Shown: piece by piece, positions 41,762-44,161 of the stretch
Position numbering within the stretch: the first letter of the stretch is position 1
Layout: each line of letters begins with the position of its first letter
NCBI RefSeq assembly: GCF_017094465.1
Contig: NZ_CP064791.1
Location: 1,860,001 to 1,924,000 of the forward strand
Reading direction: 5' to 3'
Origin: Halapricum desulfuricans
GTDB taxonomy: Archaea > Halobacteriota > Halobacteria > Halobacteriales > Haloarculaceae
Length of the DNA: 64,000 nucleotides
Notes under the pieces: generated by a model
The model's input: only the letters and a program-made list of their open reading frames with translations
What the model was told of the DNA's origin: nothing
The model's database searches: none
Position numbers and translations under genes: made by a program

Positions 41762-42637
41762 ATGAGTACCGCAGACTCCGAGGACCACGGGGAACATCAC
41801 CTCCCGGCAGTCGAGGACTGGCCCCGCGGGTTCGGCGAGGCCAGCTGGTGGCCGTTCGTGACAGCCGTGGGCGGGGCGCTGATCTACATTGGCCTGGCGC
41901 TCGTGATCTGGAGCCAGAGTTCGAATCCGACGCTGACGACACTCGGCGGACGAGCGATCACGCTCCGGGTCGCCGCCGGCGGTGTCCTCTCGGCGAGCGT
42001 CCTGCTGTTGCTGGGTGGGATCTACGGCTGGCTGTATCACGCGTTCGTGGCTAACTACTGGGAACACGGCACCGAGCAGCGAGGCAGTAGCTCCCTCCGG
42101 TTCGGCATGGTACTGTTCCTGGGTTCGGAGATCGCCACGTTCGGTGCTGGGTTCGTCTATTACTTCTTCATCCGGTCGGGCGCGTGGAGTACCGATGCGT
42201 TTCCCGAACTGCTCGGGAGTCTGGTCGTGATCAACACCGCGATCCTGCTCGCGAGTAGCGTGACCCTGCATTTCGCACACGTCGCGCTTCGCAACGGGAA
42301 CCGCCGGCGATTCGTGCGGTTGCTCGGGGTGACACTCCTGCTCGGGATCGTCTTCATCGGCGGACAGGCCTACGAGTACTACGAATTTATCGTCCACGAG
42401 GGCTTCACGATCCAGGGCGGAGCGTTCAACAGCGCCTTCTACGGACTGACCGGGCTCCACGGCGCTCACGTGTCGCTGGGCGCACTCTTGCTCGGAATCG
42501 TCTTCGTGCGGAGCCTCATGGGCCAGTACACCGAGGATCGTCATACATCTGTCAGTACAGTCTCCATGTACTGGCACTTCGTCGATCTCGTGTGGGTCTT
42601 CCTCGTCGTCTCGCTGTACCTCGGTGCCGAACTCTGA
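41762..42637 (+). CDS. Heme-copper oxidase subunit III
   Basis: A 291-residue protein with seven membrane helices of the cytochrome c oxidase subunit III family. Diagnostic segments are SSSLRFGMVLFLGSEIATFGAGFVYYFFIRSG (helix III with the conserved Glu), INTAILLASSVTLHFAHVALRNGNRR, LGIVFIGGQAYEYYEF, SAFYGLTGLHGAHVSLGALLLGIVFVRS and VSMYWHFVDLVWVFLVVSLYLG. It assists the oxygen-reducing core subunits, whose genes are not in this window, so it is a stand-alone subunit gene. It reads towards the ncRNA at 42685 with its stop in a 12-bp palindrome. Confidence 0.95.
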   Translation: MSTADSEDHGEHHLPAVEDWPRGFGEASWWPFVTAVGGALIYIGLALVIWSQSSNPTLTTLGGRAITLRVAAGGVLSASVLLLLGGIYGWLYHAFVANYWEHGTEQRGSSSLRFGMVLFLGSEIATFGAGFVYYFFIRSGAWSTDAFPELLGSLVVINTAILLASSVTLHFAHVALRNGNRRRFVRLLGVTLLLGIVFIGGQAYEYYEFIVHEGFTIQGGAFNSAFYGLTGLHGAHVSLGALLLGIVFVRSLMGQYTEDRHTSVSTVSMYWHFVDLVWVFLVVSLYLGAEL

Positions 42638-42651
42638 TCGCGATCAAAAAT

Positions 42652-42660
42652 ATTTTATAG
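42652..42660 (+). promoter_or_regulatory. Strong TATA box of the candidate ncRNA
   Basis: ATTTTATAG within an A/T-rich run (AAAAATATTTTATAG) lies about 27-29 nt before G42685, the first base of the terminal helix. No start codon with a coding open frame follows at the expected distance. It is preceded by the palindrome TGATCGCGATCA (42635-42646), which overlaps the oxidase stop codon. Confidence 0.7.
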
Positions 42661-42684
42661 TAAACTGGTGTCGGACTGCAACAA

Positions 42685-42815
42685 GGGATAGTGTCACACG
42701 CGGGGGAAAGGATCGCCGACCGCACTTGGGGGGTTGCCACTTGGGGGTGGCACCAATGGAAAACGCGACTTGCGGTCGGCCGCGGCCCCGCGCCAGTTTG
42801 CTGGCGCACTATCCC
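42685..42815 (+). ncRNA. Candidate structured noncoding RNA, family not recognised
   Basis: A 131-nt segment with its own promoter. Its ends pair perfectly (GGGATAGTG 42685-42693 with CACTATCCC 42807-42815). Inside lie a 7-bp helix CGCGGGG 42699-42705 / CCCCGCG 42786-42792, a 10-bp helix GCCGACCGCA 42715-42724 / TGCGGTCGGC 42771-42780, and a hairpin TGCCAC 42735-42740 / GTGGCA 42747-42752 with loop TTGGGG. A hairpin CGCCAG 42791-42796 / CTGGCG 42801-42806 with loop TTTG stacks on the terminal helix. It shares two bases with the 7-bp helix. The internal loop GGAAAGGATC lies between helices. It is not tRNA, 5S or SRP-like by size and motifs, and RNase P consensus elements are absent. The gap between the oxidase gene and scpA holds nothing else. 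Confidence 0.7.
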
Positions 42816-42847
42816 GGTTCGATTTCGTCGGTGGCGACCAGCCCGGA

Positions 42848-43786
42848 TCAGTCGTCAGATGCAGGGCCGGCCCCGGAAGCGGTGGGGTCCTGGATCCAGA
42901 GGTCGCCGAAAAGATCGTCCTGAGACAGCAGGACCTCCCCCCGGTGAGACAGAAAGAGCAGTCCGAGGAACGTCTCGACACGGGAGCCGGTAACGTCGCT
43001 GATCTCACGATAGAGAACTTCCGATCGGCCGGCGTTGTACTGCTCGTTGAGCACACGTTCGACGCTGCCGATGATCTCGTCGATGTTTTCGGCGTGGGCC
43101 GTCCCCGTGACCTCGGCCGCGGTCGGCTCCTCGTCCATCCGAAGATCGTCGGCACTTCGATAGTCGAGTTGCTGCGTCCCGCGCTGATACCCGTGTGGGG
43201 AGTCGCTGGTGTCGTACTCCCGGGATTCTTTCCACCAGGTGCCCCGCTCGGCATCGCGGAGTTCCCGGACAAGTTCGTCCAGCGTCTGGGGCATCCCGCG
43301 AGCGCGCTTGCGCTCGAGTCGGCGGTCGATCTCGGCGTCGAGTTGATCGAAGGGGTCGACGCCCAACTCGTCCTCGCCGAGCGGCTCGACCCAGGGGTCG
43401 TCGCCGTCAGCGGGTCCCTGATCCGCAGATTCGCCGTCGTCCAGCATAGCATCACTTTTCATGCGCACGAGCACACTCGCGTAGAACAGCGCACGGCCGG
43501 ACGTTCGCAGATCCGCCTCTTCGAGTGCGTCGAGGAACTTGTCCGTCACCCGGACGACATCGATATCCCAGGGGTCGATCTCCCCGTCCTCCGCGAGCTG
43601 GACGAGCACTTCGACCGGCTCGACATCGTCTCCCGGCGTGCCGTCCGGCTCCGGCGGTCCGCCCGGATCACCCGATTTGCCGCCCGCGAGAACGCTGGTG
43701 CCGCCGTCGGGCAAACTGCGGTCGTCGTCCGGTTCCTCCCGGGTCTCGTGACCTGTGATGTCTAGCGGAATCTCGTCGTCAGTCAT
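42848..43786 (-). CDS. scpA: Segregation and condensation protein A (ScpA)
   Basis: The kleisin partner of Smc, which closes the condensin ring in chromosome organisation. The 312-residue protein has an N-terminal Asp/Gly/Pro-rich acidic extension (residues 1-50). The kleisin N-domain is EPVEVLVQLAEDGEIDPWDIDVVRVTDKFLDALEEADLRTSGRALFYASVLVRMKSDAML. A variable middle and a C-terminal winged helix (VLNEQYNAGRSEVLYREISDVTGSRVETFLGLLFLSHRGEVLLSQDDLFGDLWI) follow. The start MTDDEIPLDITG is taken at 43786. It lies downstream of smc on the same strand, but 375 bp of inverted repeats separate them. Confidence 0.94.
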   Translation of the reverse strand: MTDDEIPLDITGHETREEPDDDRSLPDGGTSVLAGGKSGDPGGPPEPDGTPGDDVEPVEVLVQLAEDGEIDPWDIDVVRVTDKFLDALEEADLRTSGRALFYASVLVRMKSDAMLDDGESADQGPADGDDPWVEPLGEDELGVDPFDQLDAEIDRRLERKRARGMPQTLDELVRELRDAERGTWWKESREYDTSDSPHGYQRGTQQLDYRSADDLRMDEEPTAAEVTGTAHAENIDEIIGSVERVLNEQYNAGRSEVLYREISDVTGSRVETFLGLLFLSHRGEVLLSQDDLFGDLWIQDPTASGAGPASDD

Positions 43787-43835
43787 GGCTCGCCTCCAGG
43801 TTGCCACGCGACCGCGCTCGTGAGTCGCGTCTGGC

Positions 43836-44161
43836 TCCCCCGCTCGCTTTTTCGAGGATCTTCACTTCGTTCAGAACCTCCGGAGTCGCGTCTCTCCCCC
43901 CGCTCCCCGTTCTCGCTTTTTTCGAGGATCTTCACTTCGTTCAGATCCTCGCTAGTCTCGCGGGTCGCTTCGCTCGCGGGTCGATGCCCCTCCCCGCTCA
44001 CTTTTTCGAGGATCTTCACTTCGTTCAGATCCTCGCTAGTCTCGCGGGTCGCTTCGCTCGCGGGTCGATTCTCTCCCCACTCGCGTCCGAGACGCTCCTG
44101 ACAGTCGCGTCTCGCTCTCCCCGCTCGACTGTCGGAGACGCTCACTACCGTTCGCGTCTCC
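43836..44161. repeat. Array of inverted repeats between smc and scpA
   Basis: Five imperfect-to-perfect inverted repeats with 11-12-nt loops. H1 43853-43882 (CGAGGATCT arm, other arm degenerate), H2 43923-43951 and H3 44007-44035 (perfect 9-bp arms CGAGGATCT / AGATCCTCG, loop TCACTTCGTTC), H4 44088-44114 (CGAGACGC / GCGTCTCG), H5 44134-44161 (GGAGACGC / GCGTCTCC, loop TCACTACCGTTC). H2 and H3 are followed by the same stretch (CTAGTCTCGCGGGTCGC, then TTCGCTCGCGGGTCGAT). The spacers repeat GTCGCGTCT and CCCCGCTC. Arms differ but remain complementary, so pairing seems conserved. Open frames across it on both strands (peptide repeat SEDLNEVKILEK) are shadows. This explains the 375-bp gap without a gene. 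Confidence 0.85.

Follow-up and report, generated by a model that had tools for sequence, protein, structure and literature searches.

A genus-level non-coding RNA gene downstream of cox3 in Halapricum and a conserved C-rich element with which its RNA may pair

Setting and conservation of the cox3-linked RNA

The window, that is the whole 64,000-nucleotide stretch analysed here, covers G000:C1:1860001-1924000 of the 2.88 Mb genome of Halapricum desulfuricans. In it a cox3-like gene for an oxidase subunit III (41762-42637, +) is followed, outside the gene, by a 131 nt segment (42685-42815, +) that is predicted to be a structured non-coding RNA; on the other side of this segment lies a convergent scpA-like gene (about 42848-43807, -). 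The names of both genes come from reading the protein sequences alone, by the sequence-only reading and by ourselves. The segment was matched by blastn in five of the six genomes of the genus, which are all five of the complete ones; for the most distant copy the alignment stands at 68%. The sole congener in which it was not detected (G197) has a genome that is 78% complete, and its absence there is therefore uncertain. The sequence-only reading had made its proposal depend beforehand on conservation beyond one strain, and the five genomes provide it. In each of them the RNA is found downstream of cox3 and on the same strand. The window and G195 have scpA as the convergent gene beyond it, and G196 has an ApbC/Mrp-like gene there, which leaves cox3 as the only constant neighbour; the location that had been given, between cox3 and scpA, thus holds throughout for its cox3 side, and G196 departs from it on the other. 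Between the scpA-like and smc-like genes of the window there are also three tandem direct repeats of ~77 nt each (43848-44078), every one of which carries an imperfect palindrome, CGAGGATCTTCACTTCGTTCAGATCCTCG.

A covariance model of the RNA gave scores of 129-165 bits for the five RNAs of the genus and no credible further member in 146 genomes of the family and 392 of the order. Matches from genus g69 (L049-L051, E 9e-5 to 5e-3) were rejected, as was a weak second match in G198 (L062), because they fall inside protein genes or at their ends. Among named genomes, where near relatives may be hidden, the exact pattern of the conserved cores was matched in Halapricum hydrolyticum only, by records with the same sequences as the same-genus genome G195. 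Phage and plasmid records contained no match to the RNA, and viral contigs contained none to the exact core pattern and a single chance-like one to a looser pattern. In other genera cox3 is followed by a different 3' sequence without the RNA, often with a small conserved gene. In several of these genera a short conserved gene (e.g. MEPLDVEDGFDVHEYRHGLKLVSQDRATMHLENRNDFACPACGDAFEELFVSEKRENTFG...) stands at the place of the RNA (L068, L069, L071, L073-L075, L077, L078, L081, L084, L089, L092).

Promoter, ends and fold

The TATA box that the sequence-only reading had noticed (TTTTATA, 42653-42659, +) occupies -32 to -26 relative to the RNA and is conserved at the same distance in the five genomes. 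In each, TTTTATA and one further base are separated from GGGATAG by exactly 24 nt, a gap that runs from TATAG/TATAC to GGGATAG in all five cases. The spacer itself is 38-88% identical to that of the window (38-54% in the three more distant genomes), and the distance from the cox3 stop codon to the RNA differs between genomes. A TATA box that keeps its place while the spacer diverges and the interval to the cox3 stop codon varies is what one expects of an independent transcript with its start near 42685. It could be argued that the segment instead belongs to the 3' untranslated region of cox3 or is a terminator, given that it always lies 3' of cox3 on the same strand. However, the RNA has its own TATA box, which keeps its distance when the cox3 stop codon does not, its 131-155 nt with internal conserved cores exceed a terminator, and it is missing after cox3 in other genera; we regard this reading as very improbable.

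Just 5' of the TATA box, and overlapping the cox3 stop codon, the sequence and its alignment contain a dyad, TGATCGCGATCA (42635-42646, no strand assigned), that is kept in G195, imperfect in G109 and G198 and unrecognisable in G196; judged by its sequence it is a possible factor site. At the other end the closing helix is followed in all five genomes by a pyrimidine-rich tract (GGTTCGATTTCG, 42816-42827, +, in the window and GGTTCTCTCTCG in relatives), at which transcription may terminate.

The 131 nt have a predicted minimum free energy of -68.3 kcal/mol, compared to -54.1 +/- 4.0 for dinucleotide shuffles (z -3.55), and only 1 of 200 shuffles folded as well. The perfect 9-bp and 10-bp helices, the 6-bp helix and the hairpins that had been described for this segment are present. 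The segment is closed by P1, in which GGGATAGTG (42685-42693, +) pairs with CACTATCCC (42807-42815, +) as a perfect 9-bp helix that is kept in all five genomes, in G196 with one bulged C. Inside it, P2 joins GCGGGG (42700-42705, +) to CCCCGC (42786-42791) by 6 bp, with one mismatch in G195, and P4 is the 10-bp helix GCCGACCGCA/TGCGGTCGGC (42715-42724, +, with 42771-42780), which four genomes retain; in G196 this middle helix is formed by other sequence, GGATC/GATCC. The hairpin P5 (GCCAC-TTGGGG-GTGGC, 42736-42751, +) has a G-rich loop, and its CCAC/GUGG pairing is also found in G195 and G196. The 3' hairpin P3 (GCGCCAG-TTTG-CTGGCGC, 42790-42807, +) has a core of 5 bp (GCCAG/CTGGC). The 7 bp once ascribed to it are reached only by borrowing bases from its neighbours, at the cost of P2 and of the end bases of P1; its pairs are all kept in the five genomes, partly via G-U. 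Under substitution, then, the helices are mostly preserved through G-U wobble, with the middle helix of G196 as the exception, and strict covariation is weak: among five sequences three pairs change on both sides, which was equalled in 21 of 500 shuffles, a modest signal.

Two segments stand out by their constancy. Core a, GGGGGAAAGGATC (42702-42714, +), is invariant at 12 of 13 nt in the five genomes, its first base being A in G195, and core b, TTGGGGGTGGCACC (42741-42754, +), is exact in all five.

It is clear that promoter, spacing and RNA recur in every complete genome of the genus, and with the fold this is more than chance, as the sequence-only reading had argued. The RNA is very probably real, and there is good support for a genus-level gene for a non-coding RNA, with a promoter of its own. 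What it was predicted to be, an independently transcribed structured RNA, agrees with a promoter at a fixed distance from a conserved fold, with the varying distance from cox3, with convergent downstream genes and with the lack of any conserved frame. No same-strand gene follows that would make it a riboswitch or 5' leader, the downstream gene being convergent in the window, G195 and G196. Nor is it a small mRNA, for a small protein or type I toxin: no reading frame is kept across the indels, since the lengths in the five genomes (131, 136, 146, 153 and 155 nt) differ by non-multiples of three. No reverse transcriptase, as a retron RNA would have, was read among the nearby long frames, where the neighbours are cox3-like and scpA-like, and as far as the sequence can be read for H/ACA features there is no ACA near the 3' end, where the closing helix lies. 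The absence of a known family was also borne out: with Rfam 15 at the gathering threshold there was no family match in the window or the related loci, and a permissive search of the same sequences gave only chance matches below 14 bits, so that neither this RNA nor the C-rich RNA described below has a match. An expressed sRNA of 281 nt has been published for Halapricum salinum (PMC7002113); no match of it to the cox3-linked RNA or to the second locus was established.

A C-rich element at a second locus

Core a (GGGGGAAAGGATC) recurs exactly at one further orthologous locus in each complete genome of the genus, where the flanks diverge around ~65 nt that are nearly identical in the genus, AAAGTAGGTGGGG(TGGGGG)nGGGGGAAAGGATCATGGCACCGGTGGGGCGGTGCCACT. 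Beyond these two, the 13-mer showed no site conserved throughout the genus; other matches (an MCM intein junction, L117/L119, and L116 and L106) look unrelated to the RNA. A search by blastn and by a pattern of a G-run plus a GGCACC...GGTGCC hairpin placed the element in 45 genomes (43 of them complete) from six genera of one family, mostly at one place per genome (loci including L130, L133, L136, L137 and L142-L171). A sample of about 300 genomes from other families contained none, and a reversed control pattern gave one match. The window genome carries exactly one, at about 272650-272740 of G000:C1 (L108/L145). The G-run and GGCACC/GGTGCC pattern also has 30 matches in viral contigs (L172-L201), many of which may be chance.

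The G-rich strand of this locus is quadruplex-prone, with four or more G-tracts, and recurrent potential G-quadruplex sequences are known from archaea, in Methanomicrobiaceae with a C3TC3 motif (PMC8044849). The second locus resembles these in having intergenic G-tracts that adjoin a hairpin-forming sequence, but differs in occurring about once per haloarchaeal genome and in having promoter geometry. To define the latter, 40 loci were aligned without gaps on the start of the hairpin as read on the C-rich strand. The profile has a TATA peak of up to 1.8 bits at -32 to -25 from the hairpin start; A is favoured at -1, and a signal resembling a dyad lies at -62 to -45. The TATA geometry is the same as for the cox3-linked RNA. 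As the TATA box and dyad lie on the hairpin side at a constant distance, we infer that the C-rich strand is the transcript. A start on the G-rich strand would make the two RNAs paralogues with a G-rich, possibly quadruplex-forming, core, which would suit the identical cores on the same strand and the G-tracts; the promoter signals place the start on the C-rich strand, and two further C-rich genes of G195 show the same geometry. We therefore reject a quadruplex-forming G-rich RNA as the product of the second locus and consider the paralogue reading improbable.

The C-rich RNA (minus strand in G000) would thus begin with a 5' hairpin, continue in the genus with GAUCCUUUCCCCCACC and finish in a UUCC- or UUUC-rich end, and is a candidate for a new sRNA family across the Haloarculaceae. 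The search pattern prescribed the hairpin bases, so that a conserved hairpin within the 40-locus set carries no independent weight; in members found by other routes (L104, L139 and the two extra genes) the arms are different yet still paired. The C-rich RNA of G197, the congener without a detected cox3-linked RNA, lacks the GAUCCUUU segment, which speaks for a pairing of the two RNAs.

Complementarity of the two RNAs and possible function

The main functional clue to the cox3-linked RNA is that a complementary conserved C-rich RNA is encoded elsewhere in the genome, which the sequence-only reading had missed. Core a is complementary to GAUCCUUUCCCCC of the C-rich RNA (G000:C1:272683-272695, minus), and a part of core b, GGGGGTGG, is predicted to be able to pair with CCACCCCC. 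If both strand assignments hold, the longest uninterrupted complementarity between the two RNAs in each of the five genomes is 13, 14, 12, 13 and 15 nt, compared to a mean of 7.4-7.9 for shuffled controls, of which 1 in 300 reached at least 13; since the genomes are related this amounts to about one maintained observation and not five. Both partners are predicted to be accessible, the C-rich segment being 75-96% unpaired and AAAGGAUC of the cox3-linked RNA 73-85% unpaired in four of the five genomes, with G196, where it is mostly paired, as the exception. Conserved complementarity and accessible partners are what would be looked for in a sponge or anti-sRNA, an assignment that hinges on the strand inferred for the partner. 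Since the constant core exactly complements a more widespread C-rich RNA, the cox3-linked RNA probably acts by capturing it; to the full statement, that an independently transcribed G-rich RNA pairs in trans with a conserved C-rich sRNA as its sponge or anti-sRNA, we would give an even chance from the sequences.

Alternatively, it could be a genus-restricted structured sRNA that acts otherwise, through G-rich loops on mRNAs or by binding protein, the C-rich match being a by-product of shared ancestry or composition. All of the evidence for the gene itself stands without a partner, and the exposed G-rich loop is conserved. Total duplex energies (RNAduplex) are also unexceptional, no better than for shuffles of the same composition, although with one partner G-rich and the other C-rich this measure is a poor discriminator. 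Furthermore, genera devoid of the cox3-linked RNA also carry CUUUCCCCC (CUUUCCCCCACC) of the C-rich RNA, so this segment was not selected by the cox3-linked RNA, which speaks against simple coevolution. On the other hand, in each genome almost no shuffle equals the longest uninterrupted match, which takes in the non-repetitive AAAGGATC, and the 13-mer has no other genus-wide conserved site. The by-product reading is a serious but rather doubtful one.

In the capture mechanism that we propose, in which both loci would be transcribed on the strands given here, a folded scaffold would present the constant G-rich segments GGGGGAAAGGAUC and UUGGGGGUGG, and the C-rich sRNA would start with its hairpin and continue as unpaired GAUCCUUUCCCCCACCC. 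The G-rich segments would base-pair with it in trans, and the duplex, if it forms in vivo, would sequester or destabilise the C-rich sRNA, whether as a sponge, anti-sRNA or target mimic or by co-degradation. The direction may also be the reverse, with the C-rich RNA controlling the cox3-linked RNA.

Bacterial sponges and anti-sRNAs such as SroC usually act together with Hfq and RNase E, and many derive from mRNA or tRNA precursors. Like them, the cox3-linked RNA is predicted to form a short perfect duplex with a conserved sRNA and would lower its activity; unlike them, it is a free-standing folded archaeal gene. The best precedent that we found for a genus-restricted haloarchaeal sRNA gene is sRNA132 of Haloferax volcanii, which is reported to act on the mRNA of a phosphate transporter operon via its 3'-UTR (PMC6560208). 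The two are alike, judged by description, in being intergenic genes with their own promoter, restricted to one genus and conserved in position and structure, but the predicted partner here is a small RNA and not an mRNA. The open literature, a weak guide as most subscription journals lie outside it, yielded no C-rich haloarchaeal sRNA, no archaeal sponge and no archaeal sRNA acting on another sRNA. Partners are known for few archaeal small RNAs, and if the capture reading is true the pair would provide a natural archaeal sRNA sponge and two new RNA families. It is directly testable, with two single-copy loci, a predicted duplex of 13 nt, clear promoters and a partner that arose recently in the genus, and a tractable species of the Haloarculaceae would allow a search for targets of the C-rich RNA.

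A possible origin is indicated by the two extra short C-rich genes, s1 and s2, of G195 and Halapricum hydrolyticum (L041/L042, 962-880, minus, and L111, about 1500-1590), which have the same promoter spacing. The antisense relation of s1 to the cox3-linked RNA extends over a longer stretch, with scores of 26 for the window RNA and 21 for that of its own genome, compared to a shuffle maximum of 13; s2 is marginally antisense (19 versus 14 with the window RNA, 15 versus 18 in its own genome). That s1 is antisense far beyond shuffles speaks for the pairing, and suggests that a C-rich gene of this sort is present within the cox3-linked RNA as an inverted copy. The whole may then be a two-RNA antisense circuit, in which a family-wide C-rich sRNA with a dyad-bearing promoter is captured in trans by a newly evolved inverted-copy RNA of one genus, an interpretation that we hold tentatively, at somewhat less than even. 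One of the extra C-rich genes lies ~50 nt after a possible ORF for a 34-aa membrane peptide (MSKQFRKFLYRTGIALFVIIVWAVAMIAAGVGPF), and the other adjoins genes resembling an integrated mobile element.
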